Part shown: positions 17,005-40,937 of the stretch, in pieces | Layout: every line of letters begins with the position of its first letter | Position numbering within the stretch: position 1 is the first letter of the stretch | Origin: Aquisphaera giovannonii | Lineage (GTDB): Bacteria > Planctomycetota > Planctomycetia > Isosphaerales > Isosphaeraceae | Length of the DNA: 64,000 nt | Direction: 5' to 3' | NCBI RefSeq assembly: GCF_008087625.1 | Contig: NZ_CP042997.1 | Span: 7,130,001 to 7,194,000, forward strand | Notes under the pieces: generated by a model | Seen by the model: only the letters and a program-made list of their open reading frames with translations | Told to the model about the DNA's origin: nothing | The model's database searches: none | Position numbers and translations under genes: made by a program

Positions 17005-17128
17005 CGCCCCCTCCTCGCCGGACCGCGCGTCGCGGCGAACTGCAAGAGGATGGGAAACCATCGCCGCCTGAAGGGGTCGCGCGGCGAGCAACCGCCCCGA
17101 AGTGTGTGGCCGCGGACGACGAAGGTCA

Positions 17129-19549: not shown

Positions 19550-19562
19550 CGTGCGTACGCCT

Positions 19563-21773: not shown

Positions 21774-22663
21774 GAGGCGAGGTTCCAGGACGGGTCGCCG
21801 GGCCGGATCAGAGGGCCCGCGCGGATCGGGATGCGAGGTAACTGGAGAGCGGGCCGTCGAGGCTCTGGTCGGTCCGCAGGGGGACGTAATCGATGTTGGC
21901 CATTCGGCAGCCGGTCTTGAGCCGGTCGAGGAACGATCGCAGCTCGTCCTGGTAGGCCCGGCGAAGCGCGTGGGGCTCGGCCATGACGTCGGGCAGCCCT
22001 TCCATGCCGCGGAAGAGCGTCGGCTCCCGGAAGGGGAACTCGATCTCGGCCGGGTCCAGGACGTGGAAGACGATCACCTCGTGCCGGCGATGGCGGAAAT
22101 GCCGCAGCCCGTCGAGGATCCTGGCCGGGTCGTCGAAGAAGTCGGAGAAGATGGCGACCACCCCCCGCTTCTTGAACCGCTCGGCCAGGTCGTGCATGAC
22201 CGCGCCCATGTTCGACTTCTCGCGGGCCGGCGTGACCTCGAGGACGTGCAGCAGCTCCTTGAGGTGCATCGGCTGGCCGGCCGGCCGAAGGTACCGGCGG
22301 ACCGCGTCGTCGAAGAGCGCGAGGCCCACGGAGTCCTGATGCTGGATGACCAGGTAGGACAGCGCCGCGACCACGAGCTGCGCATACTGGAACTTGGATA
22401 CGTTCCGGCCGGAGCGGTACGCCATGGACTCGCTCGTGTCCAGGAGCATGTACAGGATGAGGTTGGTCTCCTCCTCGTACTGCTTCAGGTAGAGCTTGTC
22501 CGTCTTCGACCAGACCTTCCAGTCCACGTGGCGGATGTCGTCGCCGGGCACGTATTCGCGGTAATCCGCGAACTCCACGGAGAAGCCCTGGTAGGGGCTC
22601 TTGTGGAGGCCCGCGACGTAGCCCTCGACGAGCAGCCTCGCCTGGAGGTCCAGGCCCTCGAGG

Positions 22664-23749
<1,086 letters not shown>

Positions 23750-23873: not shown

Positions 23874-26800
23874 TCATGGCCGGGAGTTCGACGCCGGGTC
23901 CGCGGCCGGTTCCGCCCGGGAGAGCGCCCAGAGAGACCGGGAGGTGGCGACGAGCGCCCCGCCGGGGTCGAGCCTGACGTTGACGTCCGCGATGGCCGCC
24001 GGGAAGACGAAGCGCTGGATGAGGGCGCCGTTGTCCTGCCGCCTCACCATCAGCGGCATGCTCTCCAGCTCCTCCTCCGCCACGTCCGAGAGGCTCGGGT
24101 AGACGACAACGTACCTCGCCGAAAGCGAGATCGACCACACGGCGTTCTCCGGGCCGCTCAGGAGGTGCGACCAGATCGGGGAGCCGTCCTCGATCGACAG
24201 GGCCCGCAGCCGCTTCTGGCTCACGGAGTACACCCGGCCGCCGTCGCAGGCGATGGCGTCCGGGCGCTCGCTGAGGTCCTCGATCCCGAGGACCGTGGAC
24301 CATCTCCGCGACCCGTTGACCGGGTCCAGCCGGATCAGGACGCGGCCGTCGTGCAGGACCAGGAGCCGCTCGGCATCGACGATCACGCGGGGGGGCCCGT
24401 TGACCGGCATCTCCGTGCTCTCGCGATAGTCCCAGGTGAACTGGCCCCGGCTCATGTCATACTTCTTGACCGTCCTCCGGTCGGGGACCAGGAGCACGTG
24501 GTCCTCGTCGACGGGGACGGGGGCTCGCTCGAACTGCTCGCCCTCCGCCAGCGGCGTGTGCGTCACGGGCCGGCCGCTCTCGGTCTCCAGGACGAGGATC
24601 TGGTTGGGGGCCTGGACCTGCATGACGATCCGGTCCGGGCCGACCCAGATCTTGTCGTTGATGGGGCCGCCGGGGGAGGTGAAGACCCAGTCCACCGCCC
24701 CGCTGTCCCCGTCCAGGGCGACCAGCTCCTGGTCGCCTCGGAGGCAGTAGAGCCGATGGCCCGCGAGGTGGAAGCCGTGGAGCTGGCCGGGGGCGGCTTC
24801 CGCCCCGCCCTGGGCCGCCGGCCTGGCGAACGGGTCGGGCGCGATCCGCCCCTTCCCGCCGGGCCTCTGGGCGAATTTCCACTGCTCCAGTCCGGTGGAC
24901 GGGTCGATCGCGACCACCCGCTCGGTGTTGGCGGCGAGGACCTTGTCGGAAAGGTAGCCGACCCACGAGGCCGCCTTGCCGAGCTCGACCGACCAGCGTG
25001 CCTGGCCGGTGGCCGGGTCGAGGGGCGTGAGGCGGGAGCCGTCCTGGAGGAAGGCGCGGCTGGCCTGGAGGCCGGGCAGCACGCCCTCGGCCGCCATCAC
25101 CCGCAAGGGCTGGCGGTCGGGCGACTCGAGGTGCCAACGCCTGGCGAGCGGGAGCGAGAGCGGCGGCCTCGGCCGGTCCGCGGCGACCTGGTCCAGCGGC
25201 GGCCTGGCCAGCTCCTTCGCCGCGACCTCCCCGAGCGTCGAGCCGGCGGTCAGCTCCGGCAGGCGGACCCGGGCGTAGCGCGTCTGCAACTGCAGGTACG
25301 CGTCCCTCGAGGCGATGAGATAGTTCTGCGCCTGATAGACCCGCGCCAGGCGAAGGAGGGCCCTCGCCCTGTCGACGTCCGGCACGTTCGCCAGCGTGAG
25401 CAGCCGCTTGTAGGACTTCGACGCCTGCGAGAGGCGGTTGGCGCCCTCGTGGACCTTGCCCATCTCCAGGAGGGCCTCCGGCACGACTCGCGCCACCGGA
25501 TACGCGCGGGCCAGCTCGTCGAGGAGCCGGGGATCCTGCTCGCGACGGCCACGCTCCAGCAGCTCCCGCGCGCGGGCCTCGTAGGGTTCGTACACGGCGC
25601 GGCCGGCTTTCCCGACGACGGACGCGAGCCGGTCGCCGATCAGGAGGTCCGCCCGGACCGCCCGGCGACCATCCTCGGAGGCCAGCGACAATCCCCGCAG
25701 GCGGTCGTCCGCGAGGATCGAGCCGAGGATGGCGACGGCCTCCGCCGGCCGTCCGGCATCGAGGTCGACGTCGGCGACGAGCATCCGCGCCCGCAGGCGA
25801 TCGGCCTCGGTCCGGGCCAGAGTCGACGCCTTCTCCAGGCTGGCGGTCGCCGCATCATGGCGACCCGCCCCGCGCTCCTGCTCTCCGCGGCGGACGAGGA
25901 GGCGGAATTGGTGGTCGATCGCGGCATCCGCCAGGGGCAGGCCGTCGATCGTCTCGGAGGGCCGGGCCGTCCGGGCGGCCTGCTCGTACGAATCGAGCGC
26001 GACCTGGTCTCGCCCGACGGCCTCGGCCGCCCGGGCCAGCCGGTAATGCGTGGACGCCTGGTTCGGATCGCGGGCCAGCTCGTCCCGATACCTCTCGATG
26101 AGGCGGCTGTTCTGGCAGAACACCACGAGGGCGTCGGCCTGCGCGACGATTAGGTATCCGTCCCCCGCGACGAGGTTGCCCCCGGTCGTGTGGAAGCTCT
26201 CCATGAGCCGGATCGGCGGCTCGGCCCGCACCCCGGTGGACTGGTCGAGGACCTCGATGCGGTCCTTGGTCGGCCAGTAGATGCGGCCGCCGGCCAGCAG
26301 GCCGCGGCCGTAGCCCTCCGACTTGCCCGAGTCGGGCCAGGTCGAGACGAGCCTGCCGTCCTTCGCATCCAGCAGCAGGACGCGGTCCCCGGTGGCGACG
26401 AGTCGGCCCTTGGCCACCCCCAGCAGGTGCGTCAGCTTGACCTCGTCCGCGATCGGGTCGGATCTCCAGGCGAGGCGGCCCGTATCGGCCCGGAAGGCGA
26501 AGATGGCCGACGCATCGCTCGGCGCGACGATCACCAGGCCCTCGTGGATCACGGCCGGATTCAGGTCGCGGTCGCTGCCGCCGGATCGCGTCTGCTCCTG
26601 CCGCGGGTAGTTGGCGACCCAGCGGACCGATCCGGTCTCCGACTCGATCGCGATCACGGCGCCGAGGTTCGTCTGGTAGTAGAGATACGGCCCGTCCAGG
26701 GACAGGAGCCGATGCCCGAAGTCGCCCGGCGGGGGCGGATTGAAGGGCATGCCCATGCCCATGAGGTTGTCCACCTCCGGCGAGGCGGCCCCGAGATAGC

Positions 26801-28316
26801 GCACCCACCGCCGGGCACCGGTCTCGGCGTCGAAGCAGGCCACATAGGTCGAGGTCTGCTCGCGGCGGTCGGTCACCGCCATGAACACGTTGCGGCCGTC
26901 GGCCACCGGCGTCCCTTCGAAGTTCACCGATCGGTTCGACTGGCCGGGTGCCCGGTTCGGCAACGCAAGGTCGGCGGCACGCTGGAGCCACAGCAGCTTG
27001 CCCTGCGCATTCCAGTCCAGGGCCACGATGTAGCTGGACCCCCCGGACGGGCCGCGATTCATGCTGTTGTAGGGCGAGGGCGTGGCGGGCCCCATCCTCG
27101 CGTAGATCCGGCCCCCCACCGCCGTGAGGGTATGCCTGGGGGTGCTGGCGCTCATCTTGTAGGCTTGCGGAACGACCGTCTCGGGGTCGTGCTTCCAGAC
27201 GGGCTCGATCGCCGTGGGCGACGCCCCGGGGCGGCTGGCGGGACGCTCGCTGAGATTGTAGGCCAGGACGCGGCTGCCGTCGGACACGAGCACCTGGTCG
27301 CCCAGGACGATCGGATGGTAGGCCAGCAGCCGCTCGCCGGGCACGCCCGGCGCGCTCACGGCCATCCCCCGAAGATTTCCATACGGGTTGCCGCCCACCC
27401 CGGCCATCACCCGATCCAGCGAGACCCTCCATTGCTGCGAGCCGACGTCGACCGGCTCCGGCAGGATCCTCTCGCGTCGGAAGCCGCCGGCGAAGGTGGG
27501 CCATCGTCCGTCCGGCTGGGCCGGCGGGGCCAGGCGGTCCGCGGCGAGTGCCTCCTCGAGCGTCCTGGCGTACGGGCCCTTGCGGCCCGCCAGGGGGCCG
27601 CTCGCGCCGGGGTATCGCTTCGCGAAGCCCGCCAGCTCCGCGGGCAGGTTGAGCGTCTCGCCCGCGGCGGCACGGCAGAGGAGCACCTTGGCGGCGACCC
27701 GGGCTATGTCCACCGACGGGTCCGGATACACCAGGTTGTAGCTCCCCCCTTCCCGGTCCGGGGCGAGCTGCCGATACATCGCCAGCGACTCGCCGAAACG
27801 GCCGTCCTGGAAGGCGAGGTCTCCCAGCAGCTCCAGGGCGTCATCCCCCCACGAGCTGCAGAACGCGAGGTCGACGACGCGCCGCAGGGCGGACGCGTCC
27901 CGCCGCGCCGAACCGTCGCGGAACCAGGATTCCGCCAGGGGATCGATGCGGGCCCGGTAGATTGCCCTCGCCTCGGCCGGCAGCGAGGCCAGCGTGCGGT
28001 GGCAGTAGGCCCGCAGGTCGACGAAGAGCTGGAAATCCTCGCCGGGATCCTGGGCCTGCCCCGCCCCCTGCTCCTTCGGCAGGCCGGCGACCTTCTCGCC
28101 ATACTGATCGATGATCCGCTGATAGATCCCGACCGCCTCGGCCCACTGCCCGGCCCGGGCGTGGCTGGCCGCATTGCGCAAGAGCGTCTCGGCCGGCCCG
28201 CTCGAATCGGGGATGAATTTCGCCGCGGTCCGATTGACGCCCTGGGCGAAGCACGTCGGCGCCGCCATCGCTGCCATCGCCGCCGCGAGCACCAGCCATG
28301 ATCGGAGGAGGATCAC
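23874..28316 (-). CDS. exported giant PQQ-propeller / TPR protein
   Basis: About 1480 residues. A signal peptide ([20 protein letters not shown]) is followed by a TPR-like region and a first set of PQQ/WD-like beta-propeller blades ([62 protein letters not shown]). A second helical TPR stretch (about 790-1040) and a second propeller ([58 protein letters not shown]) complete it. Blade motifs of the D-x-x-T/S-G-x-x-x-W type recur at least eight times. These propellers usually bind proteins; quinoprotein dehydrogenase residues were not identified. I start it at GTG 28316 before the signal peptide; the open frame continues to 29792 but overlaps other genes. It heads the MoxR/VWA run and may be its exported client or cofactor. 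Confidence 0.85.
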
Positions 28317-28822
28317 CCCGGCCGGGGTGCGTCGCCCACGCCGCAGACTACACGGGGCATCGAGAGGGGCAGGATCGCATGTTCCGGCTCGGCCGGACCG
28401 TGGACTCAGGTCGGGACCCTTCCGAGGCGAGCGAAGGGGAGGTATCAATCTGGTCGATCTCCCTTCCTGGTGACAAGATCGATCAATGCTGGCGCGGGTC
28501 GTCCGTGATTCCCACTGGAGCCGGGCCCTGCCCGCGGATGCCTGCCGAACGATGCCTGGGAGATGCGAACGGAGCCACGCACGTTCCCGCATTGGAAACG
28601 ATATCGAGACCAGCTTGCAACGGCAAATCCGGGACCAACCCCCGGGACTGCCCGGAATCGCGGGCAAACGGCCCGCCGCACCGCCGACTCCCCGGGGCGG
28701 CTTGCCGGCTGGTTGGGCATCGACGCCCTCTATCGGAGCGGAGTGCGGAGGGTCGCGGGACGGATCTCGAGCGGAGACCTCACTCCATCGGGCGGGGTGC
28801 CGCGTTCGCGATCCGCGGGACT
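28317..28822. other. about 500 nt without a recognised gene
   Basis: Lies upstream of the PQQ-propeller gene and downstream of the 57-residue membrane protein gene. Open frames cross it on both strands but none has recognisable protein character. It most likely holds the promoter of the long minus-strand operon; I see no convincing -35/-10 pair or hairpin. Confidence 0.5.
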
Positions 28823-28996
28823 TCAGGACGATGCATTCTGGATGGCGTAACCCAGGTAGAAGATCGCCACGCCGCCTGCGGCCACCAGGAGGGATTGGCC
28901 GAGGCCGACCTTCCCCTCCAGCTCCGAGACGATCCCGAACGGGAGTATCACCATGCCGATGAGCTGGAGGGAGCGACCGATGCGATAACGGCTCAT
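28823..28996 (-). CDS. small two-helix membrane protein
   Basis: 57-residue protein. Two hydrophobic segments (LQLIGMVILPFGIVSELEG and LLVAAGGVAIFYLGYAI) are joined by a short charged turn (EGKVGLGQS), and the N-terminus is positively charged (MSRYRIGRS), which predicts both ends in the cytoplasm. Stop (TGA) and start (ATG) are clear, but no strong ribosome-binding site is visible. It follows the second cupredoxin-like gene by 123 nt on the same strand, so it may be the last gene of the respiratory operon and could be a small accessory subunit. No function can be assigned from sequence. Confidence 0.65.
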   Translation of the reverse strand: MSRYRIGRSLQLIGMVILPFGIVSELEGKVGLGQSLLVAAGGVAIFYLGYAIQNASS

Positions 28997-29119
28997 GGGT
29001 GCGGTCGCAGTCGAGGAGTCCGGCCCGCGGGCGCTTCATGGGCCGGATCGGATGGGGCGAGGGCCAGCCGCCCGGCCCTCGCCACGGAAACGGAAGGGTT
29101 GACCGGGCGGTCTGCCGCG

Positions 29120-29950
29120 TCACTTCACCTGGGAGGGCTCGATCTTCACGTCGCCCAGGTCGACCACGCCACCGGCGGTCACGGTGACGGGGATGCCCTT
29201 CGCCTTCGTCTTCGAGTCCACGTAGCCAACCTTCTCCTGCCAGAGCACCACATTCTGGGGGCCCGCCGGGACGCCCTTGATCTCGAACGTCCCATCCTTG
29301 CCGGTGACGGCGAAGAACGGATGGTCGAAGACCATGAGGTAGGCCTTCATCCACGAGTGAATATCGCAGGCGACGACGATCGGCCTCTTCTCGGCGACGA
29401 GCGTGACCTCGAGTTGGCCATTGGGGGCGAGGATCTGATTGAACGGCGAATTCGAGAACGCCGCATAGCGGACGTTGTGATTCACCGGGTCGCTCGACTT
29501 GATCACGAGCTTCTGGTCCTGGTGGATGGCCTGGGCGTAGGGGAAGAATTCGCATCCCTTCTGATCCAGGATGGCCCTCGGGGCCTTCTCCACGAGCGCC
29601 TTGGCCGCCTCGGGGTTGGTCCCGTTCGGCTTGACCAGGTAGACGAAGCCGTAGGATACCCCCTTGGTCTCGGGATCCACGACCAGCTCCCGGGACGGGA
29701 TCGGGCCGTTCGCGCCGCAGACCTCCACGTCCTTCGGGGCCTTGCCCTTCTCGACCAGGTTCTTCTCGGGGGGCACTTCCGAGCCGCCCCAAACGAGGCG
29801 CCCCTTGATCGTGCCGTATTCGGACTGGGCCGGCATGCTGGAGGCCAGGAGGCCAGCGGCCGGGGTGGCGGCGACGGCGGGATATGCGGCCACGACGAAG
29901 CTGGCCATGGCCAGGAGGGCCCCGGCCGGGGCGCGGAAGAACGAACTCAT
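29120..29950 (-). CDS. exported cupredoxin-like protein, copy 2
   Basis: 276-residue exported protein. A signal peptide (GALLAMASFVVAAYPAVAAT) precedes a beta-rich domain (YGTIKGRLVWGG) and a region with H158 (PVNHNV) and C195-D-I-H198-S-W-M201. This H...C-x2-H-x2-M spacing fits a type-1 copper site, although it has not been shown to bind copper. The C-terminal 70 residues (FFAVTGKDGTFEIKGVPAG) form a carboxypeptidase-regulatory-like beta sandwich. It is clearly related to the lipoprotein encoded immediately upstream (same order, same motif) but lacks the lipobox and the Ser/Ala-rich spacer. GAGAGG precedes the ATG. A role as periplasmic electron carrier for the upstream cytochrome genes is inferred from context. 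Confidence 0.8.
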   Translation of the reverse strand: MSSFFRAPAGALLAMASFVVAAYPAVAATPAAGLLASSMPAQSEYGTIKGRLVWGGSEVPPEKNLVEKGKAPKDVEVCGANGPIPSRELVVDPETKGVSYGFVYLVKPNGTNPEAAKALVEKAPRAILDQKGCEFFPYAQAIHQDQKLVIKSSDPVNHNVRYAAFSNSPFNQILAPNGQLEVTLVAEKRPIVVACDIHSWMKAYLMVFDHPFFAVTGKDGTFEIKGVPAGPQNVVLWQEKVGYVDSKTKAKGIPVTVTAGGVVDLGDVKIEPSQVK

Positions 29951-30066: not shown

Positions 30067-31008
30067 TTACTGGGCGCGCAGGCGAGACGGCTCGAGCTTG
30101 AAATCGTGGACGACGGCGTCGTTCGCCTTGATGACCACGTCCTCCCCGGACGGCGCGGTGAGGAAGCCGTTCTTGTCGAGGCCTTCCTGCCAGACGACCA
30201 CCTTCTGGGTGCCGGCCGGGGCGTTCTTGATCTCGAAGTAGCCCTTGGAGTCGGTCACGGCGAAATACGGGTGGTCGAAGACCATCCACCAGGCCTTCAT
30301 CCAAGGGTGGATATCGCACGTCACTTCGCCTGGTGTCCGCTCCGCGGCGCTGGGCGTAAATTCCTGCTTGGCCTGCGGGGCTAGCAACTGATTGAACGCC
30401 GAGGCTTTCAGCTTGGCGTTGATGTTGTGGTTGACGGGGTCGCTCGACTTCAGCGTTATCGGCGTCCCCGTCATCATCCCCAGGACGTGGGGCTCGAAGA
30501 CACACTTATTCTGGTCGAAGAGGACGGTCGCCGCCGTCATCGCTTTCTTGGCGTCATCGCTCACGCTGGTCGGCTTGCTCAGGTAGACCAGCACATTCTT
30601 CACGCCCTTCGTCCCGCCATCCACGACCAGTGACTCGGAGAGGATCGGGGAGTCCTTGGCGCAGACCTCGGGATCCTTGGCGGCCTTGCCCTTCTCGAAG
30701 AGGACCTTCGGCGCGGGGGGATCACCGGCGAAGACCACCTGGCCCTTGAGCGTCCCGTAACCCTCGGCCTTGACGGGCGCGGCCGCGGCGGCGCTCGACG
30801 ACGCCGCCGGAGCCGAGGCATTCGAGGACGAGCCCCCGGTCGGGGCCGCGGCCACCTTGGGCCCGGACGAGGCGGGGGGAGTGGTCGGGGTCACGATGGC
30901 GTCGCTGGAGTCGGAGGCGGTGCCGCCGCAGCCGAAGACGGCCACCATGAGGGTGGCTCCCAGGCTCAGGCCGATCGAGGAAAGTTGCATCGTCCGGTTG
31001 GTCTTCAT
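30067..31008 (-). CDS. cupredoxin-like lipoprotein, copy 1
   Basis: 313 residues. A lipoprotein signal (LGATLMVAVFGC, lipid cysteine C27) leads into a 50-residue Ser/Ala/Pro-rich tether. The folded part has a beta domain (YGTLKGQVVFAG), then H194 (PVNHNI) and C231-D-I-H234-P-W-M237, compatible with type-1 copper ligands, and a C-terminal carboxypeptidase-regulatory-like sandwich (YFAVTDSKGYFEIKNAPAG). CDIHPWM is a motif common in proteins annotated as plastocyanin- or methylamine-utilisation-like. I choose ATG 31008 because it begins the lipoprotein signal; the frame is open to 31311. It follows the octahaem cytochrome gene by 172 nt, suggesting that it receives electrons at the membrane surface. 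Copper binding is inferred, not shown. Confidence 0.85.
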   Translation of the reverse strand: MKTNRTMQLSSIGLSLGATLMVAVFGCGGTASDSSDAIVTPTTPPASSGPKVAAAPTGGSSSNASAPAASSSAAAAAPVKAEGYGTLKGQVVFAGDPPAPKVLFEKGKAAKDPEVCAKDSPILSESLVVDGGTKGVKNVLVYLSKPTSVSDDAKKAMTAATVLFDQNKCVFEPHVLGMMTGTPITLKSSDPVNHNINAKLKASAFNQLLAPQAKQEFTPSAAERTPGEVTCDIHPWMKAWWMVFDHPYFAVTDSKGYFEIKNAPAGTQKVVVWQEGLDKNGFLTAPSGEDVVIKANDAVVHDFKLEPSRLRAQ

Positions 31009-31180: not shown

Positions 31181-34100
31181 TCACTGCCCCCCGCCGGTGG
31201 GCCGGGCCGGCGGTGCGCTCGCCGTCGGCGACGGCTGCGCGCCGGGCTGGGCCGCCGCGGGCGGCTGCGGATTCGCCCCGGCCGCGAGCTGCTGCTCGAC
31301 CACGTTCGCATAGTTCAGGAGCGTGTCGCGGATGGCGCGGACCATCTCCAGCGGCTGCTTCTCGAACGTCTTCGGGACCGGCAGCTGGACGTCGCCGCGG
31401 GGCGCCACGTTCTGGGGCATGGCCGTGTAGGGCACCAGCCGCTTCGGGTTCGCGATCCAGGTCTCCAGGAAGCCGGGCCGGAACCGCGACGCGACCTGCC
31501 GGAGGTCCGGACCGTTGACGACCTGCTCGCCGCCGGTCGGCTTGTACGGCCCGACGGCATGGCACTGGATGCACGGCGAGCTCTTGTTCGCCATCATGGA
31601 CCACCCCGCCCCCAGGTAGTTCGGGTGCGCCCCGTTCCTCTCGGCGATGTAGCCGGCCTGATGCTGAGGGATGGTCTGGTAGGGGAACTCGGCGCCGTCG
31701 CGGGCGGCGAAATAGTCCGCGATCTCCTCGGTCTCGCGGCTGCGGGTGCCCATCGCCTTCCCGTAGTGGAACCGCGGCATGCGGAGCTGGGCCGCCGGTC
31801 GGATCGCATACGGATCGAGCAGGAAGAGCGCGAGCCAGGGTGTCTGCACCTTGTTGCCCTCCCTCAGCAGGGGCGGCGGGAGGCGGTTCCAGAAGGCTTC
31901 GAAGCTCGTGCCCGCCTTCTCCTGGGCCACCGTGGAGAAGAGCCAGGCGAAGTCGCCGCCCACGGCGGGGACCTGCCGGATCTTGGTCCGGTCGAGAGTG
32001 ACGTTGTCGCCGATGTTGAAGGTGTAACCCCGGATCGTCACGGGCTTCCAGAGCTGCACCGTCAGCTCGTCCTCGAAGAGCCCGATCGGCATGCCCTCGA
32101 TCGTCACCGGGGCCGTGCCCTCGTCGGGCTTGAGGCCGAGCTCCTGCTCGACGTTCTGGGCGTCCAGCTTCTTGGCCGGGTCGAACTGCAGGTCCGCGTA
32201 GATCTGCGGGATGTAGTCGCCGGCCCGGGCGTTGTACGACGATCGGACGTTGGTCTTGAAGTCGGTGAAGGCGTCGGCGACCTTCGTCCCCTCGGGCACG
32301 ATGAACTTCGGCATCTCGAGGACGTGGCAGCCCGCGCAGTTGTAGCGGTTGAGGACCTTCGACCCCTTGGCGAGCGCCGTCTTCACCTCGTTGTAGCGGG
32401 TCTTCGCCAGGTATCGGGATGCGATCTTCTCCCCGGTGAGGCCGAGGATGAAGGTCATCACCTCCTCGACGGCCGCCGGGTCGTTCGCCCACGCGAACTG
32501 GGGCATCCTGAGCCGATCGTCCCAGGTCTTGTACCGGTCCTTGTTCTTCAGGAAGTCGTAACTCCGGGGCCGATGCAGCTTCTGGTAGAGGAAGCCGATC
32601 CGCGTCTCGTGCCCGAGCTGTTCCTGGTAGAACTTGTCCGTGCCGTCGCGGTCGCCGCCCGCCGCGGCCGGCTTGTCTTCCAGGTACTCCAGGATGTGGC
32701 CGTAGTCGAGCCGGGTCGGGCTCTTGATGCCCCAGTCGTTGAGCGGCGTGCCGATGGGCTTGGCGTTCTCGAAGCCGGGGATCGAGTGGCAGCCGAAGCA
32801 GCCGAGCCGGTTGATCGTCTTCTCGCCGACGAAGTCGAGCTTGTCCTCGGTGCTCAGCCTGGCGACGAACTGGTCCACCTCGCTGAGCGGGACCGCGACC
32901 AGCTTCGCATCCTTCTCCCTGCCCTTGAAGCCGCCCTTGGAGACGTAGAGCTTCACCAGCTCGTCGAGCGCGGGACCCACCTTGCCGTCGCTCACCGGCG
33001 CGACCTTGACCTCGACCGGCCAGTCGCCGGGGACCGAGATGAGCCAGGCGGCGATGTCGGCGGCGTCCTGGAAGGCGAGCTGGAGGTTGGGCATGAGGCT
33101 CTTGGGGTGGTACTTCTCCGGATTCTGGATCCAGTTCGAAAGCCATTTCAGGCCCTTGTCCGGCTCGGACCGGAACTTGGCCGCGACGTTGCCCAGGTTT
33201 GGGCCGTAGTCCGCCTTGGCATACTCGCGGACCGCCTCCGGGAAGCCGGCGGGGTCGTAGGTCGCCGACGGGTCGGGCTTGTAGTTGGGATTGAGGTGCT
33301 CGCGATCCGCCGGCTGCACCGAGGCCGGGTCGTAGGGCCGGTGCTGGTGGCAGGCCATGCAGCCCTTCTGCAGGAAGAGCTCCTTCCCACGCGCCGGGTC
33401 GGTCTTCGCGGGCGGGGCGTCGAAGTTCTCCGGCGGCGTGCTGCGGGCGAACAGGTAGTGCGTGATCGCCTGGATCTCGGCGTCCGTCTTCGGCTGGTCC
33501 TCGGGGGCGTCGTTGTTGCTGACGCCGTAGAACCGGGGCATCCGCGAATCGGGGCGGAACGCGTGCGGATCCTTGATCCACCTCGCGACGAATTCGGGCG
33601 AGACCTTGGCCCCGATGTGGGCCAGGTTCGGCCCGACGGTACGCTCGTCGGTGAGGTCGGGGCCGAACGAGCCCTCGCCGCCGATCGTGTGGCAGCCCGT
33701 GCAGCCGTACCGGACGATCCGCTCGTAGCCCGCCTGGAGCTTCTTGGCCTGGGGGATGTCCGTGACCTGGTGGTGGCACTTCAGGCAGCTCGACTCGGTG
33801 AACCGGGCCGGGAGCATCGGGTAATCCCAGTGGTGGATCTCCTGCCAGCCGTACTTCGCCCTCCAGTGTTCCTCCTCCTCCGGGTCGGCGGGGGTGTGGG
33901 AGGCGAACGTGAAGTCGGTGCCGGATCCCTGACCGCCGTGGCAGATCGTGCAGCCGAAGCTGTTGATCGGGTGGGGCCCGTTGGGGTCGAGGTAGAGCCC
34001 CGCGGTCACGGTCCGCCCCTTCGTGTCCGTCGCCAGCGCGCCGTTTGTCAGGAACGGATGCGCGGCGAAGACCTCGGGCATCGGCTGGCCGGCGGCGTCC

Positions 34101-34918
34101 TTGTCGTAGCCGATCCGGTCGATCCCCTGGTGGCACGTCGTGCAGCGGTCGTAGCGGGGGACTTCCTTGAAGTTGTAGTTGATCGTCAGGTCCGGGAGGC
34201 TGATCTGCTGGATCTTCGTCGGCGAGGCGGCCATGTCGATGCCGGGAAGCCCGCGGAGCCATGCCATGATGCCGAAGTACTGGGCCTCCTTCTGCTCCAG
34301 CACCCGCCTGGCGCGGTCATAATCCCTCGTGTACTTCTCCTTGTCCTTCGTCAGCCGGTCCACGAAGCCCAGGAGCTCCTCCTTCTGGGCCTGCTTCTTC
34401 TTGAGATCGGACTGGGCCTGCTCGAGCTGCCGGGAGAGGTCGCCGAGCTGCTTCTCGGCGTCGGCGATCGTCGTGTTCAGGTAGCGTCGCGCCCGGCCCT
34501 CCTCGCCCCGCTCGATCATGCCGTCGTAGAAGCTGCGGAGGCTGTCCAGCTCCGCCTTCTTGAACTTGCGGGAGGTGTCGAGGCCCTCGGCGTTGGCCTT
34601 CAGCCCGGCCAGCTCGCCCTCCACCTTCCGCAGCTCGGCCCGCCGCGACCCGGCGTTGGCCTCGGCCTGCTTGATCTCGGCGTCGATGGACTCGATCTTC
34701 GCCTGCGCCGTCTCCTTCTGCTTCGTGAGTGCCTCCTGCTCCGAGGCCTCGAGCTTGGCGCGCTCGACCCGCTGGAACTCCCGCTGGACCTCCTTCCACG
34801 GGCGGAGGTGATCCGCCATGATCATCCAGACGATCGCCAGCGTCATCGCGATCGACGACACCGCGAAGACGATGTGGAGGACCGGCTGCGATCGATAGGT
34901 TTCCTCGGAGGCTGGCAT
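31181..34918 (-). CDS. octahaem membrane-anchored cytochrome c with coiled coil
   Basis: 1245-residue cytochrome with one N-terminal membrane helix (VLHIVFAVSSIAMTLAIVWM) and no cleavable signal. A coiled coil (about 40-215, rich in Glu, Lys, Gln and Ala) follows. The long periplasmic part has eight CxxCH haem motifs, the first at C259 and the last at C1116: CTTCH, CTICH, CLKCH, CTGCH, CMACH, CFGCH, CAGCH and CIQCH. Several are separated by cytochrome c-like segments with distal Met candidates (SRMPRFYG; SLMPNLQLAF; LRMPRFHYG). The gene lies 66 nt after the second cytochrome b gene and belongs to the Rieske/cytochrome b operon. It probably replaces cytochrome c1 or f and passes electrons outwards. 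The length and coiled coil are unusual for such a subunit. Confidence 0.93.
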   Translation of the reverse strand: MPASEETYRSQPVLHIVFAVSSIAMTLAIVWMIMADHLRPWKEVQREFQRVERAKLEASEQEALTKQKETAQAKIESIDAEIKQAEANAGSRRAELRKVEGELAGLKANAEGLDTSRKFKKAELDSLRSFYDGMIERGEEGRARRYLNTTIADAEKQLGDLSRQLEQAQSDLKKKQAQKEELLGFVDRLTKDKEKYTRDYDRARRVLEQKEAQYFGIMAWLRGLPGIDMAASPTKIQQISLPDLTINYNFKEVPRYDRCTTCHQGIDRIGYDKDAAGQPMPEVFAAHPFLTNGALATDTKGRTVTAGLYLDPNGPHPINSFGCTICHGGQGSGTDFTFASHTPADPEEEEHWRAKYGWQEIHHWDYPMLPARFTESSCLKCHHQVTDIPQAKKLQAGYERIVRYGCTGCHTIGGEGSFGPDLTDERTVGPNLAHIGAKVSPEFVARWIKDPHAFRPDSRMPRFYGVSNNDAPEDQPKTDAEIQAITHYLFARSTPPENFDAPPAKTDPARGKELFLQKGCMACHQHRPYDPASVQPADREHLNPNYKPDPSATYDPAGFPEAVREYAKADYGPNLGNVAAKFRSEPDKGLKWLSNWIQNPEKYHPKSLMPNLQLAFQDAADIAAWLISVPGDWPVEVKVAPVSDGKVGPALDELVKLYVSKGGFKGREKDAKLVAVPLSEVDQFVARLSTEDKLDFVGEKTINRLGCFGCHSIPGFENAKPIGTPLNDWGIKSPTRLDYGHILEYLEDKPAAAGGDRDGTDKFYQEQLGHETRIGFLYQKLHRPRSYDFLKNKDRYKTWDDRLRMPQFAWANDPAAVEEVMTFILGLTGEKIASRYLAKTRYNEVKTALAKGSKVLNRYNCAGCHVLEMPKFIVPEGTKVADAFTDFKTNVRSSYNARAGDYIPQIYADLQFDPAKKLDAQNVEQELGLKPDEGTAPVTIEGMPIGLFEDELTVQLWKPVTIRGYTFNIGDNVTLDRTKIRQVPAVGGDFAWLFSTVAQEKAGTSFEAFWNRLPPPLLREGNKVQTPWLALFLLDPYAIRPAAQLRMPRFHYGKAMGTRSRETEEIADYFAARDGAEFPYQTIPQHQAGYIAERNGAHPNYLGAGWSMMANKSSPCIQCHAVGPYKPTGGEQVVNGPDLRQVASRFRPGFLETWIANPKRLVPYTAMPQNVAPRGDVQLPVPKTFEKQPLEMVRAIRDTLLNYANVVEQQLAAGANPQPPAAAQPGAQPSPTASAPPARPTGGGQ

Positions 34919-34984: not shown

Positions 34985-36577
34985 TCAAATATTGAAGAAG
35001 TACTCGGGGATCGCAACCAGGTACTTGAGGTTGAAGGTCCACCGGAGCACCATCTTGATCGGCAGGCTGGCCATGAACAGCAGGAGCACGGCGAGCGTCA
35101 TGTAGCGCACCATCCCCGCCTCGGCGGAATACCTGCGGAAGAAGAGCCGTCGCAGGATCTCCGGGGTGAGGATGAGGTAGAGCAGGACCAGGACGATCCC
35201 GGGCAGCTCGCGGGCGAAGAAGTTGGCCGGCTTGGACGTCCCCATGAGCTGGATCCAGAAGAAGTCCGACAGGTTGACGTTGTTGAGCGGGATCAGCTTG
35301 TGGAGGTCCCAGTACTCGTAGGGCCCGAAGAAGTTCCAGTTGGGGCCGCGGAGGAACGTCCCCAGGAGGATCAGCACGACCCAGAGGACGAGGTAGCCGA
35401 ACTGGAACGTGATGTACGCGAACTTCCGCTTCGCGATCGTGTAGTAGCCGTTGCCCTCCTTGTTGATGTCGATGTACGGGATCGCCATCAGGCCGACGAT
35501 GATCATGGTGGGCAGCACCACGCCGGCCATCCAGGGGTCGAAGTAGACGAGCATCTCCTGGAGGCCCAGGAAGTACCACGGGGCCTTCGACGGGTTGGGC
35601 GCCACCGTGGAGCTCGCCGGCTGCTCCAGGGGCGCCTGCAGGGCGATCCCCCAGAGCACCAGGACGATCGTCAGCAGGACCATGCAGATCAGCTCGGTGT
35701 ACACGAGGTCGGGCCAGGTCAGGGTCTTGTCGGGCTCCAACTGCTCCAGGTTGGGCAGCCCCTGGGCCATCCGCGCGTCGTTGATCACGGCGCGGCGGAG
35801 GCTGAGCCAGGTGAAGTAGCCGACCAGGACCATCAGCCCGACGATCGGCACGTTGTCCGGCTTCGTGACGATGTCCCGGAAGTCGTAGTCGGTCATGCTC
35901 AGGCCGAAGTAGAGCAGGGCCAGGTTCACCCCCGCCCAGGCGACCAGCCCGTTGGCGAAGAACTTCCGGAGCGCGATCAGCGCGACGAACGCGGCGGTGG
36001 CCCCGATGAAGAAGGTGGTCGGTCCCGCCACGGCGTCGATCGCGTCGCGGAAGAGCTGGGGCAGCACGACGGCCCCGCCGAAGAGGTAGGCGATGCCCAT
36101 CGCCTGGAACATTACCGCGGCGACCGCCCAGATCAGGGTCCAGAGCGTCCGGCTGATCGGCCGGCCCAGGCCCACGGCCGGGATGTGGTCGTCGAGCGTC
36201 GGCGAGCGTTCGAGCACCGCGTCGGGGTGGTCGGTCGCCCCCTCGTGCGTCTCGGCGAAATGGGCGGCGTCCGCCCCCGCCGTCAGCGCGAGCAGCCCGT
36301 TGGCCAGCGCGCAGAGGCAGTACGCCGCGACCATGGAGCCGGGCAGGAACTGGCGCAGCAGCACGAGGAGTATCGCCATCCCGTAGAGGCCGAAGAAGGC
36401 CGTCGACAGCCAGGCGGGCAGCCGCCGCGTCTTGGGGGCCAGCCCGACGCGCGAGGCGCCTTCGCCCACGAGCGTCCCGTAGGCGATGTAGGCGGCCGCC
36501 GCCGCGTTCAGGATCGAGGCGAGCAGGTAGTACCAGGCCAGCCCGAACATCACGCCGGAGGTCAAGTCTTGGTGCAT
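34985..36577 (-). CDS. cytochrome b C-terminal (subunit IV-like) protein with N-terminal extension
   Basis: 530-residue membrane protein with about 12 hydrophobic segments. The part from about residue 283 resembles subunit IV of cytochrome b6f or the C-terminal half of cytochrome b: it begins KTLTWPDLVYTELICMVLLT, and the quinol-site motif reads K331-A-P-W-Y335 where bc1 and b6f have PEWY, so proline replaces the conserved glutamate. The preceding 280 residues carry about seven extra helices with two short His-containing loops (DAAHFAETHEGATDHPD), not part of the canonical subunit. The start has GGAAG five bases upstream. It lies 82 nt after the b6-like gene, so the cytochrome b is naturally split. 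What the extension binds is unknown. Confidence 0.9.
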   Translation of the reverse strand: MHQDLTSGVMFGLAWYYLLASILNAAAAAYIAYGTLVGEGASRVGLAPKTRRLPAWLSTAFFGLYGMAILLVLLRQFLPGSMVAAYCLCALANGLLALTAGADAAHFAETHEGATDHPDAVLERSPTLDDHIPAVGLGRPISRTLWTLIWAVAAVMFQAMGIAYLFGGAVVLPQLFRDAIDAVAGPTTFFIGATAAFVALIALRKFFANGLVAWAGVNLALLYFGLSMTDYDFRDIVTKPDNVPIVGLMVLVGYFTWLSLRRAVINDARMAQGLPNLEQLEPDKTLTWPDLVYTELICMVLLTIVLVLWGIALQAPLEQPASSTVAPNPSKAPWYFLGLQEMLVYFDPWMAGVVLPTMIIVGLMAIPYIDINKEGNGYYTIAKRKFAYITFQFGYLVLWVVLILLGTFLRGPNWNFFGPYEYWDLHKLIPLNNVNLSDFFWIQLMGTSKPANFFARELPGIVLVLLYLILTPEILRRLFFRRYSAEAGMVRYMTLAVLLLFMASLPIKMVLRWTFNLKYLVAIPEYFFNI

Positions 36578-36659: not shown

Positions 36660-37433
36660 TCACATCGGCCCGCTGATGCCGCCGTCCTTACGGACGCGCC
36701 AGAAGTGGATCATGATCAGCAGCGAGACGGCCAGCGGGATCGCCACGCAGTGCAGGACGTAGAACCGGTTGAGCGTCATCTCGCCGACGGCACGCCCGCC
36801 CAGCAGCGCGAATTTCGCGTCGGAGCCGTTCGTGATCAGCTTGACCCCGTTGAGATTCAGGAGCGAGGCGCCCGGCCCCTCGACGCCGGCGAACGGCGTC
36901 GCCCGGGCCATGTTCGACCCCACGGTGATCGCCCAGATCGCCAGCTGATCCCACGGCAGGAGGTAGCCCGTGAACGAGAGCAGCAGCGTGAGCACCAGCA
37001 GCAGCACGCCCACCACCCAGTTGAATTCCCGAGGCGGCTTGTAGCTGCCGGTGAGGAACACCCGGTACATGTGCAGCCAGACGGCGATGACCATCGCGTG
37101 CGCGCCCCACCGGTGGAGCTCCCGGAGGATGCCCAGCGTGGTGACGTCCCGGAGGGCCAGGATGTCGTTGTACGCGTGCTCCAGCGTGGGCCGGTAGTAG
37201 AACATCAGGAGCACGCCCGTGACGACCTCGACGATGAACAGGAAGAAGGTCGTCCCGCCCATGCACCAGGTGTAGCTGAGGGCGATCCCCTGCTTCCGGA
37301 CGCTCACCGGGTGCAGGTGCAGGAAGAAGTTGGTCAGCATCACCACGACGCGGTTCCGCCGGTCCGTCGGCATCGGGTGGCGGAAGACGCTCTTCCAGAG
37401 CTGAGTCTCGGTGATCTTTTCGAGGAGTGGCAT
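36660..37433 (-). CDS. cytochrome b6-type subunit (N-terminal cytochrome b)
   Basis: 257-residue membrane protein with four main helices. Haem b ligands are H107 and H121 in helix B, and H228 and H243 in helix D. The 14-residue step in B and 15-residue step in D match cytochrome b6 rather than mitochondrial cytochrome b. C57 (SYTWCMGG) aligns with the cysteine that holds the extra haem c-i in b6f complexes. The loop [13 protein letters not shown] corresponds to the quinol-oxidation site region. Being split from its C-terminal half is also b6f-like. It lies 126 nt after the Rieske gene and 82 nt before the subunit IV-like gene. The protein would oxidise quinol in the inner membrane and cycle electrons through the b haems. 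Confidence 0.95.
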
Positions 37434-37559: not shown

Positions 37560-38777
37560 TCAGACCGAGATGAAGCTGTCGGGATCGGACCACTGCCCGA
37601 GCTCTTGCTGGAACTTCTGGCTCTTGTCCACGACGATCTGGCCGTCGTCCGCCAGGGTCACCTTGTACCGCTCCAGGGGCCGCGGCGCCGGCCCCTCGAA
37701 GTTGATGCCGGTGACGTAGAAGCCGCTGCCGTGGCACGGGCACTTGAACTTCTGCTCGCCGGCCAGCCAGTTCGGCGGGCAGCCGAGGTGCGTGCAGATC
37801 GTGGAGAGGGCGTAGATGATGTCCTGCCCGTCGTAGCGGGTGGACCGGACGATCCAGAATCCCCACTCGGCCTTGAACCGCTCGTTGACGTCCTCCGGGT
37901 CGAACTTGCCCGGCTCGCCGACCTTGATGGTGCTGGGCGGCTCCGCCAGGACGTTGGGGAACATGAACCGGCCGAGCATGCCCGTGAAGGCGACGCAGCC
38001 GGCCGCGAAGGAGGTCCACGCGAGGGCGATCCACGAGACGAAGAGGGGGCCGAGGAAGAAGCCGCGGCGGCTGGAATGGTCGACGCCTTCGGCGCCCGCG
38101 GTTGTCGCCGCCGCCTTGCTGGGCTTCGGCAGCACGGACGAGGGCTTGGCGGCGGACGCCTTCGCCGCCGGCTTGGGTGGGGCCGCGGCGGCCGCCGCGG
38201 CCGCGGCCTCCTTGTCCTTCCGGGCGCCCGCCTGGCGGAGGGCCTCGGCCAGGTCCTTGGGGTCGGTGATCTTGTCGAGCGGCGGGATCGCCCTGGGCTC
38301 GCCCGCGGCCGGCGCGGCGGGCTTCGCCGCCGCCGGCTTGGCCGGGGCGGCTCCCGCGGCGGGGGCCGCGGCGCCGCCGCGGGCGGCGGCGAGCTTCTCC
38401 GCCAGCGTCAAGGGACGGCCCAGGGGCTTGGCCGGGGGCGGCACGGCCGGGGCCGGCGGCTCAACCGCCGGGGCGTCCCCCGCCGCGACCTTCGCGGCGG
38501 CGCCGGGTGCCGGCGCGGCCGCGGCGGCCGGCGGGGCCGTGCCCCCCGCCCTGGCCGCCGCCAGCTTCTCCTTGACGGTCAACGGCCGCCCCAGGCTCGA
38601 CGGCGTCGGCCCGGCGGCGACGGCGGGACTGGCCGGGGGCGGTGCGGGGGCGGCTTCCGCGGCCGCCTCCTCGATCGGGGCGGCCGCCGGCTCGGGCTCG
38701 GCGGCGGGCTGTGGCGTCGCTGGACCTCCCCGCCTCGCCGCTTCCAGGATCTCCTGCACGCTCGGGCGCTTCGCCAT
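37560..38777 (-). CDS. Rieske iron-sulfur protein with repeat-bearing N-terminus
   Basis: 405 residues, about twice the usual length. The C-terminal domain binds a [2Fe-2S] cluster through C328, H330, C346 and H349 (CTHLGC and CPCHGSG), with C333-C348 as the disulfide. One membrane helix lies at about 240-266 after a twin-arginine-like SSRRGF. The first 235 residues are Ala/Pro-rich and lie on the cytoplasmic side. Within them a 15-16-residue unit occurs three times: RPSVQEILEAARRGG (4-18), RPLTVKEKLAAARAGG (64-79) and RPLTLAEKLAAARGG (121-135). The gene is first in the operon encoding the cytochrome b halves and the octahaem cytochrome. The N-terminal repeats may be docking helices; nothing in the sequence shows their partner. 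Confidence 0.94.
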   Translation of the reverse strand: MAKRPSVQEILEAARRGGPATPQPAAEPEPAAAPIEEAAAEAAPAPPPASPAVAAGPTPSSLGRPLTVKEKLAAARAGGTAPPAAAAAPAPGAAAKVAAGDAPAVEPPAPAVPPPAKPLGRPLTLAEKLAAARGGAAAPAAGAAPAKPAAAKPAAPAAGEPRAIPPLDKITDPKDLAEALRQAGARKDKEAAAAAAAAAPPKPAAKASAAKPSSVLPKPSKAAATTAGAEGVDHSSRRGFFLGPLFVSWIALAWTSFAAGCVAFTGMLGRFMFPNVLAEPPSTIKVGEPGKFDPEDVNERFKAEWGFWIVRSTRYDGQDIIYALSTICTHLGCPPNWLAGEQKFKCPCHGSGFYVTGINFEGPAPRPLERYKVTLADDGQIVVDKSQKFQQELGQWSDPDSFISV

Positions 38778-39167: not shown

Positions 39168-40937
39168 TCAGACCGCATCGAACACTTCCAGGGTGCTCGA
39201 GATTTCCCTCAGTCGCGCGGTGAGGTAGGAGCGGATCTCGTCGCTCGTGGAGAGCTGGAGGACGTGGTGGGCGAACCGCTCGGCCTGCGCGGTCGTCACC
39301 GCGCCGAGCAGGTTCTTCACCGCGGGGATGAACGCCGGGCTCATGCTGAACCGGCGCAGGCCCATGCCGAAGAGCACCAGCGCCGACCGGGGCTGGCCGG
39401 CCATCTCGCCGCAGAGGGTGACGGGCGTCCCGGTGCGATTGCAGGCGTCCAGGACCATCTGGAGGACGCGGAAGATCGACGGGCTCAGCGGCTCGCAGAG
39501 GTGGGCGACCTTGGGATTGTCCCGGTCGGATGCCACGAGGTACTGGATCAGGTCGTTGGAGCCGATCGAGATGAAGTCCGTCTCCCGCAGGATCGCGTCG
39601 ATGCAGATGGCCGCGGCCGGCACCTCGACCATGACGCCGGTCTTCACGTCGTCCGCGAAGGGGACGCCCTCGCGCCTCAGGTTCTCCCGCGTCTCCCGGA
39701 CGACCTTGTTGATCCTCTTCAGTTCTTCCAGCGTCGTGATCATCGGGAAGAGCATCGAGACCTTCCCGTGGCGGCCCGCCCGGAGGATGGCGCGGATCTG
39801 CGTGATCATCAGCTTGGGATTCTCGAGGAAGATCCGGATCGATCGCCAGCCCATGAAGGGGTTCGGCTCGCTCCGCCTCCCGAGGTAGGCGACGGTCTTG
39901 TCGCCGCCGAGGTCCAGAGTCCGGATGGTCACGGCCTGGTTGGGCGAGTTGACGATGATCTGACGATAGTACTCGAACTGCTCCTCCTCGCCCGGCACGT
40001 CGTGATGGGTCAGGAAGAGGTATTCGGTCCGGAAGAGCCCCACGCCGGTCGCACCGACCGTGTTGGCCGCGTGGACGTCGGCGATGTTGTTGATGTTCGC
40101 CAGCAGCTCCATGCGGTTGCCGTCGAGGCTCCGCGCCGGCTCGTCCCGGTTGGCGATCAGGCTGTCCTTCAGGTGGAAGAACTCGCGCTGGACCTTGCGG
40201 TAAAAGGTCGTCTCGTCCTGGTCCGGCCGGACGATGACCAGCCCTTCCCTGCCGTCGACGACGAGCGGGTCGCCGCTGCGGACGAGGCTCAGGATGCCCT
40301 CGACGCCCGAGACGGCCGGGATCCCGCGGCTCCTCGCCAGGATCGCCGCGTGGCTGGTCGTGCCCCCGACCTCCGTGACGATGCCCGCGATCGGCAGCTC
40401 GCCGAGGCTCATCGCCTGGCTGGGCAGGATCTCGTGGGCGACCAGGACGACCGGCTCGTCCCCCTCGCGGGACTCCAGGGACCTGTCGCGGGCCGGATCC
40501 TTCTTCCTCGCGAGGTGCGAGCCGATCCGCAGGATGACGTCGCGGAGGTCGTTGAGCCGCTCGCGGAAGTACTCCTGCTCGATCCTCGCGAACTGGGCGA
40601 CGTATCCCTGCATCACCTGCTGCAGCGCCGACAGCGCGGTGAGGTTCTGCTCCTCGATCAAGGAATGCACCCGCGAGAGCAGGCCCGGGTCGCTCAGGAT
40701 CTGGAGATGGGTCTGGAAGATCTCCGCGGCGGACGGCCCCAGCTCCTGCGCGACGCGCTGGACCAGCCCTTCCAGCTCCGAGGCCGCCTCCTCCACCGCC
40801 CGGTCGAAGAACGCGGTCTCCGCGCCGACCAGGCCGGGGTCGTCCAGGTGCTGCGGCTCGGTGGGCCCCAGGGCCGACTCCACGCGGTACGCCACGCCGA
40901 CGACCACCCCGGGACTGACACCGACGCCTTTATGCAT
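39168..40937 (-). CDS. ptsI: PTS enzyme I (phosphoenolpyruvate-protein phosphotransferase)
   Basis: 589-residue soluble enzyme that takes phosphate from phosphoenolpyruvate and passes it to HPr. The N-terminal HPr-binding helices are followed by the swivelling domain with active-site H196 in GGTTSHAAILARS. The C-terminal TIM barrel binds phosphoenolpyruvate (FRTEYLFL; RTLDLGGDK; SIGSNDLIQYLVASDRDN; LCGEMAGQP, where the conserved catalytic cysteine is present). Length and domain order are typical. No HPr or EII gene adjoins it, so it may serve a regulatory PTS or a partner encoded elsewhere. It is divergent from the ABC-F gene, and a possible -10 (TATGAT, minus strand 41021-41026) lies 84 nt before its start. 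Confidence 0.96.
   Translation of the reverse strand: MHKGVGVSPGVVVGVAYRVESALGPTEPQHLDDPGLVGAETAFFDRAVEEAASELEGLVQRVAQELGPSAAEIFQTHLQILSDPGLLSRVHSLIEEQNLTALSALQQVMQGYVAQFARIEQEYFRERLNDLRDVILRIGSHLARKKDPARDRSLESREGDEPVVLVAHEILPSQAMSLGELPIAGIVTEVGGTTSHAAILARSRGIPAVSGVEGILSLVRSGDPLVVDGREGLVIVRPDQDETTFYRKVQREFFHLKDSLIANRDEPARSLDGNRMELLANINNIADVHAANTVGATGVGLFRTEYLFLTHHDVPGEEEQFEYYRQIIVNSPNQAVTIRTLDLGGDKTVAYLGRRSEPNPFMGWRSIRIFLENPKLMITQIRAILRAGRHGKVSMLFPMITTLEELKRINKVVRETRENLRREGVPFADDVKTGVMVEVPAAAICIDAILRETDFISIGSNDLIQYLVASDRDNPKVAHLCEPLSPSIFRVLQMVLDACNRTGTPVTLCGEMAGQPRSALVLFGMGLRRFSMSPAFIPAVKNLLGAVTTAQAERFAHHVLQLSTSDEIRSYLTARLREISSTLEVFDAV

Follow-up and report, generated by a model that had tools for sequence, protein, structure and literature searches.

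Here, we describe a gene for an eight-haem c-type cytochrome and the electron-transfer genes around it, found in a stretch of 64,000 nucleotides from the planctomycete Aquisphaera giovannonii (contig NZ_CP042997.1, positions 7,130,001 to 7,194,000; hereafter the window, in which all positions are counted). On the minus strand, genes for a Rieske protein, the N-terminal part of a cytochrome b and a subunit IV-like protein lie, in this order, directly upstream of the octahaem gene, and genes for two cupredoxin-family proteins follow it. These genes and the parts of the octahaem protein are listed below, with the supporting matches in brackets (aa, amino acids; AF2, AlphaFold 2; pLDDT, predicted local distance difference test).

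37560-38777, minus strand: Rieske [2Fe-2S] protein, 405 aa; its long N-terminal extension is rich in Ala and Pro (PF00355, 35.3 bits)
36660-37433, minus strand: N-terminal part of a b6-like cytochrome b, 257 aa (PF00033, 140.7 bits; conservation)
34985-36577, minus strand: subunit IV/petD-like membrane protein, 530 aa, with the Qo-site motif KAPWY (PF00032, TIGR01156, ExtQ)
31181-34918, minus strand: octahaem c-type cytochrome subunit, 1245 aa, ATG at 34918 (eight CxxCH motifs)
34808-34888, minus strand: single N-terminal membrane helix, aa 11-37 (hydropathy, about 11-38; AF2 helix, 11-37)
34274-34801, minus strand: predicted helical arm or "coiled coil", aa 40-215, with a turn at aa 137-139 (AF2 helices; hairpin-like matches)
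33686-34153, minus strand: putative trihaem module, aa 256-411, haems 1-3, candidate distal ligands His287, His316 and His341 (conserved His columns)
31409-33736, minus strand: five putative single-haem class I-type domains, aa 395-1170, haems 4-8 (Met columns; Pfam Cytochrom_C and FixO)
30067-31008, minus strand: predicted cupredoxin, lipoprotein-like (Cys27), 313 aa, ligands His194, Cys231, His234 and Met237 (AF2 pLDDT 84.8)
29120-29950, minus strand: second cupredoxin-family protein, 276 aa, with CDIHSWM (phmmer match of the first copy, 201 bits)

The CxxCH motifs of the octahaem protein are located at residues 259, 323, 378, 406, 520, 707, 861 and 1116, and each of its 16 cysteines falls inside one of them. 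Among 20,000 residue shuffles of the protein, none contained more than one CxxCH (mean 0.005), and 196 of the 197 open reading frames (ORFs) of at least 100 aa in the window lack the motif, the octahaem ORF being its sole carrier. A preliminary description of this DNA, made from the letters alone, had reported 1245 residues with eight CxxCH motifs, a membrane anchor and about 175 residues of coiled coil; the ORF, motif count and hydropathy bear out the first three, and the last fits the long helices that AF2 predicts at residues 40-215. Its coordinates were likewise correct, and the strand, which it did not state, is minus; a plus-strand reading of 31181-34918 was rejected as meaningless. The closest relative from a named genome is the protein of Aquisphaera insulae (86% identity; locus L111). 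In the Protein Data Bank, sequence search retrieved weak single-domain matches (best E 0.0053); a Foldseek search with the AF2 model yielded no match at E <=0.001, and the VIA structure-match list for this model was taken up by matches of the arm. No cytochrome f family of Pfam or NCBIfam matched the subunit at E values up to 0.1.

Relatives were collected as two sets of loci, L053-L110 and L111-L190, which overlap and whose counts are not summed (hereafter the first and second sets). For this purpose, 58 loci were fetched, 40 from matches across the phylum and 18 from a search of the family; of 146 relatives from a scan of named genomes, 80 were retained. Altogether, 109 eight-motif proteins (96 distinct) and 92 b6-type cytochrome b rows (75 distinct) were compared. 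An alignment of 54 full-length proteins (53 relatives and the window) has all eight CxxCH motifs in common columns in 54/54; it left out three loci cut by a contig or fetch end (L068, L094 and L104), one with the gene in two ORFs (L089) and one encoding 759 aa with six motifs (L107). With the window and the dropped loci counted, 55 of 59 places hold one ORF with eight CxxCH. The preliminary description had proposed such a count in orthologues and named absent conservation as part of the outcome that would speak against its idea; the motifs are conserved throughout the alignment. At L089 (7010-10662), which covers the same DNA as L120 (Singulisphaera sp. GP187), the octahaem gene consists of two ORFs with 7 + 1 CxxCH, apparently owing to a frameshift.

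The same alignment holds natural distal ligands for the haems. The columns of His287, His316 and His341 are conserved in 54/54, 53/54 and 54/54 proteins, and those of Met460, Met609, Met805, Met1047 and Met1167, the candidates for haems 4-8, in 54/54 each; in a set of 41 sequences that includes other phyla, the three His columns are kept in 41, 41 and 39 and the five Met columns in 38-41. These candidate ligand columns suggest a 3+5 architecture, a trihaem module followed by five single-haem domains, and the conserved histidines indicate that coordination in the trihaem module is probably bis-His. Large insertions of variable length separate the haem domains across relatives, and there are more haems than one acceptor would need, both of which would suit a protein that, beside relaying electrons, also catalyzes a reaction such as the reduction of peroxide or a nitrogen oxide. 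Judged from sequence, however, each of the eight haems has a conserved candidate distal ligand, which leaves no obvious open haem, and we regard such an added enzymatic role as very unlikely.

The genes upstream define the complex to which the octahaem subunit would belong. The Rieske motifs CTHLGC and CPCHGS are present in 48/48 aligned proteins. In the cytochrome b, the haem b ligands are His107, His121, His228 and His243, and the position of the haem cn cysteine is filled by Cys57, which is Cys in 47/48 rows and, in the larger set, in 90/92 (75 distinct). The subunit IV-like protein matches PF00032 at 20.4 bits, slightly below the cut-off of 20.7, and TIGR01156 and ExtQ, both below their cut-offs; its KAPWY motif is present in 50/50 rows. 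About 230 Ala/Pro-rich residues precede the membrane helix of the Rieske protein; long forms recur in the family, and the extension is probably cytoplasmic.

Among loci with sufficient flank, the gene for the N-terminal part of cytochrome b lies upstream of the octahaem gene on the same strand in 40/43 of the first set and 37/40 of the second. At three loci, it is not adjacent: genomes G141 (L054) and G056 (L105) have it on the same contig at a distance of 10-11 kb, and G076 (L062) has it on another contig. In the family search, 25 of 41 genomes match the octahaem protein at 1e-50, all 25 with a short b6-type cytochrome b, 15 genomes have neither gene, and one (64% complete) has the b6-type cytochrome b alone; these cytochromes b were typed by match pattern and frame length. 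The preliminary description had placed the gene in a bc operon. Rieske and cytochrome b genes do adjoin it, and the view that one multihaem subunit stands in place of cytochrome c1/f is supported, but the split cytochrome b makes the complex b6-like, not bc1-like.

On this basis, we consider it likely that the octahaem protein is the high-potential c-type subunit of a b6-type Rieske/cytochrome b complex that oxidizes quinol, in which it replaces cytochrome c1/f, relays electrons to cupredoxins and clamps the complex with its arm. Upon oxidation of quinol, one electron would pass to the Rieske cluster and from there to the octahaem subunit, and the other would cross the membrane via haems b and cn. 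At the membrane surface, the octahaem subunit would relay electrons through its several haems or store them. Its acceptors would be small carriers of the periplasm, the likeliest being the adjacent amicyanin-like cupredoxins, and from these the electrons would reach a haem-copper oxidase. The arm, running out and back, would probably clamp or brace the complex around the Rieske protein, with no lifting of the haems off the membrane.

The form of the arm bears on a different proposal, put forward in the preliminary description, namely, a stalk or long wire that carries electrons across the wide planctomycete periplasm. In this reading, the coiled coil would lift the haem chain, and electrons would get as far as the outer membrane or past it. 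A single chain with eight haems and its long helices agree with this proposal, as does the nearest NCBIfam model of the cytochrome b, ExtP, which stems from a cluster that also encodes a porin-like protein and several multihaem cytochromes (excerpts of PMC5877670). The structure was predicted by AF2 for residues 1-1200 with 40 sequences, as a monomer without haem (pLDDT 85.1, predicted template modelling score 0.75). In the model, the arm consists of helices 40-91, 93-136, 140-183 and 186-215, which form two limbs, 40-136 and 140-215, with a break or turn at 137-139. Contrary to a straight stalk, the arm of the model thus turns back, and this is backed by matches of its centre (model residues 93-184) to known helical hairpins at about 2-4 A, such as 5swp_B (2.5 A over 91 residues, Z 10.6); the structures matched, such as p85 iSH2, are presumably antiparallel hairpins. 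Z values of this size are common for helices, and these matches denote shape, not kinship; whole-arm matches have root-mean-square deviations (rmsd) of 10-28 A, and the full path of the arm is less sure.

Comparison of relatives points the same way. The spacer between the membrane-side motif and the first haem has a median of 214 residues (85 of 109 proteins, in which the motif was found), and four proteins have spacers below 150 residues: L140 (65), L169 (62), L163 (33) and L164 (125). In the planctomycete L140, nearly all of the arm is gone and eight CxxCH are kept, and the proteins of L163, L168, L169, L171 and L184 carry eight motifs, the first at residue 72-116. Since the arm can be removed, as in L140, with eight motifs left, it would seem to be an arm with meeting ends rather than a stalk that sets the height of the haems; as judged from one metagenome-assembled genome (MAG) and the arm-less relatives, a stalk would hardly be removable. 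Nor are arm-length spacers confined to planctomycetes: by length only, they occur in Omnitrophota, Neomarinimicrobiota/Marinimicrobia, Thermoanaerobaculum, FCPU426, Bacteriovoracaceae and one "Proteobacteria" MAG, and eight-motif relatives with shorter spacers occur in Desulfobacterales, Desulfocapsa, Acidobacteriota, Deferribacteres and Myxococcota. In the published model of an anammox complex, such helices wrap round the complex (excerpts of PMC12954380). Furthermore, the ExtP match (262.6) stays below its cut-off of 290, and the downstream genes are often those of cupredoxins and, in some loci, of oxidases, porins not having been searched for. A wire or stalk spanning the periplasm is therefore very unlikely. 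As a separate observation made by eye, the protein of L140 (4917-8342) has a PDZ-like stretch apparently inserted between haems 1 and 2.

The case for relay to cupredoxins rests on the genes downstream. By fold and ligands, the product of 30067-31008 is predicted to be a type-1 copper cupredoxin and to bind copper: its AF2 model matches 4hcf_A (Z 13.9, rmsd 1.6 A over 84 residues) and, among others, nitrosocyanin, plastocyanin and amicyanin, and the columns of His194, Cys231, His234 and Met237 are conserved in 60/60 rows, with the loop C-x2-H-x2-M in 56 rows and C-x3-H-x2-M in 4. The second protein (29120-29950) matched no Pfam family at 0.001. Where the flank suffices, 31/50 loci of the first set and 34/44 of the second have a cupredoxin gene in the 4 kb downstream; L149 was scored as lacking one merely because the ORF overlaps the octahaem ORF beyond the counting rule. 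A COX1-like ORF was found within 9 kb in 6/21 and 15/39 loci of the two sets, respectively, three of them confirmed as COX1 by Pfam. The COX1 query ORFs were picked mechanically; matches of the L191 query were counted, and those of the L192 query, which were antisense, were ignored. In Thalassoglobus (L135 and L161), the octahaem gene is followed, in this order, by two cupredoxin genes, a gene for a protein with two CxxCH, another ORF and COX1. These neighborhoods suggest the order quinol, Rieske, octahaem subunit, cupredoxin, oxidase, and from them we infer the cupredoxin as acceptor.

Several observations weigh against the role as a quinol-oxidizing relay to cupredoxins. In 19/50 and 10/44 loci, no cupredoxin gene turned up over the same 4 kb. 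No oxidase gene is adjacent in the window, the nearest of the five COX1 places in the genome being about 50 kb away. A fused cytochrome b with two CxxCH (G000 C1:2912650) is also encoded in this genome, and a different contig carries an NrfD-type gene close to a COX1 (G000 C2:106006-113402), so that the genome possibly holds three types of complex III. Given the fused cytochrome b, the NrfD gene near COX1 and the five COX1 places, other routes exist; in view of these alternatives and of the 15/41 family genomes without the octahaem gene, the octahaem complex need not be the main complex III. In addition, bis-His haems usually have a low potential and would be poor acceptors for the Rieske cluster unless a His/Met haem were reduced first, and the pLDDT of the haem-free monomer model falls to 48-56 over residues 291-340, in the trihaem part.

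Another feature of the cytochrome b invites comparison with anammox bacteria, for which complexes of this kind were proposed to generate NAD(P)H by electron bifurcation. For the complex of Kuenenia stuttgartiensis, an AlphaFold 3 model proposes an extra haem b at the interface, with His62, Arg266, Lys267 and reductase Arg550 among the residues nearby (excerpts of PMC12954380). The equivalents in the window, His39, Arg248 and Lys249, are conserved in 92/92, 92/92 and 90/92 b6-type cytochrome b rows (75 distinct), and that of His39 in 21/22 rows of L168-L190. The homology of the octahaem protein to the Kustd1485-type subunit, together with conservation of the predicted interface-haem ligand in all 92 rows, would fit an NAD(P)H generator. 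However, a search with the NAD(P) oxidoreductase L070_20, which covered the ORFs of the window and not the remaining genome, detected no homologue at E 1e-15; among loci with sufficient flank, an oxidoreductase gene was found upstream of a full octahaem gene in just 2/43 of the first set and 2/40 of the second; and no reductase homologue was found in the stretches behind the 92 rows, which differ in their flanks. Electron bifurcation to NAD(P) is thus highly unlikely here. The three residues being kept with no reductase homologue nearby, the haem site proposed there, if it exists, has no fixed link to NAD(P) reduction.

Among 149 sampled planctomycete genomes (that of A. giovannonii included), 71, roughly half, match the octahaem protein at E 1e-10, and many of the weaker matches could be paralogues. 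The cultured Singulisphaera acidiphila and Thalassoglobus neptunius carry the gene. A search of the literature found no description of this subunit in non-anammox planctomycetes, and an earlier description is possible; as far as searched, the spread across the phylum, the 3+5 architecture, the arm as a removable module and the conserved ligand of an extra haem b are new. Complex III is usually taught with a one-haem output subunit, and this subunit is a one-haem protein in most bacteria and mitochondria. Here, an eight-haem subunit of putative 3+5 architecture sits on a b6-like core in roughly half of the sampled planctomycetes and in scattered other phyla, and most loci lack the neighboring NAD(P) reductase gene that is the basis of the proposal of unusual energetics in anammox. 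In cultured carriers such as S. acidiphila, the role of the extra haems and of the interface haem b becomes testable outside slow-growing anammox enrichments. Tentatively, and with more doubt than for the role of the subunit itself, the octahaem complex may be an old form of complex III, wide in Planctomycetota and several other phyla, with a third haem b, at the interface, joining the two monomers and cupredoxins leading to an oxidase, and anammox bacteria may have kept or regained an NAD(P) reductase on the same chassis.

Other genes of the window include one at 39168-40937, upstream of the operon, which we take to be PtsI-like; 11 of the 18 loci from the family search also have a homologue upstream. 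The 1972-aa ORF at 23874-29792 has matches to PQQ/BamB-like propellers and TPR; its listed start overlaps the second cupredoxin gene, and the true start is probably further in. The region 13183-23749 on the minus strand contains genes for a MoxR-type ATPase, DUF58, BatA/VWA and DUF4175-like (below the cut-off) proteins.

Among known systems, cytochrome b6f shares the four-helix cytochrome b, the spacing of the haem ligands, the haem cn cysteine and the separate subunit IV, and its acceptor is plastocyanin; the window complex differs in its octahaem subunit, which has no cytochrome f match, and in KAPWY in place of PEWY, the Qo motif of b6f. Canonical cytochrome bc1 is ruled out by the eight haem motifs and the split cytochrome b. 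The Geobacter proteins ExtP and ExtQ provide the nearest NCBIfam models for the cytochrome b and subunit IV parts, but membership in the Ext selenite/tellurite operon was rejected on the scores (ExtP 262.6 against a cut-off of 290, ExtQ 54.9 against 150). According to excerpts of PMC5877670, the extHIJKLMNOPQS cluster encodes a porin-like protein and several multihaem cytochromes, these being, unlike the octahaem subunit, separate proteins with 4, 5, 10 and 12 haems. Other multihaem-linked Rieske/cytochrome b clusters have been described (PMC5317091 and PMC4683180, excerpts). Six-motif relatives are encoded at 19 of the 80 loci, from Acidobacteriota and one Binatota (L170, L172-L183 and L185-L190), where Rieske and cytochrome b genes are likewise followed by a gene for a homologous multihaem c protein. 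These proteins have six CxxCH and mostly 460-560 aa, the cytochrome b ORF is mostly about 425 aa, and an NAD(P) reductase-like gene is present in the fetched stretch of 17/19 loci.

The closest counterpart is Kustd1480-1485 of K. stuttgartiensis, which, in excerpts of PMC12954380, comprises a b6-like cytochrome b, a five-helix subunit IV, a c-subunit with six or eight haems and an NAD(P) oxidoreductase. The split b6-like cytochrome b, the Rieske protein, the large multihaem c-subunit with long helices and a subunit IV-like protein with extra membrane helices recur in the window, and the oxidoreductase subunit marks the difference, none being seen in the window or beside most planctomycete homologues. 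Locus L069 has all four residues given in that source (cytochrome b His62, Arg266 and Lys267, reductase Arg550) and, judging from these residue numbers, is very probably a locus of the Kustd1480-1485 type; L070 has three of the four, with Val at reductase residue 550. At both loci, a reductase gene is present and the c-subunit has eight CxxCH. That of L069 (L069_2; 948 aa, 269 bits) is about 30% identical to the 1245-aa window protein, and its motifs and ligand columns align with those of the latter. With its b6-like cytochrome b, homologous octahaem c-subunit and long helices, the window locus fits a complex of the Kustd1485 type.

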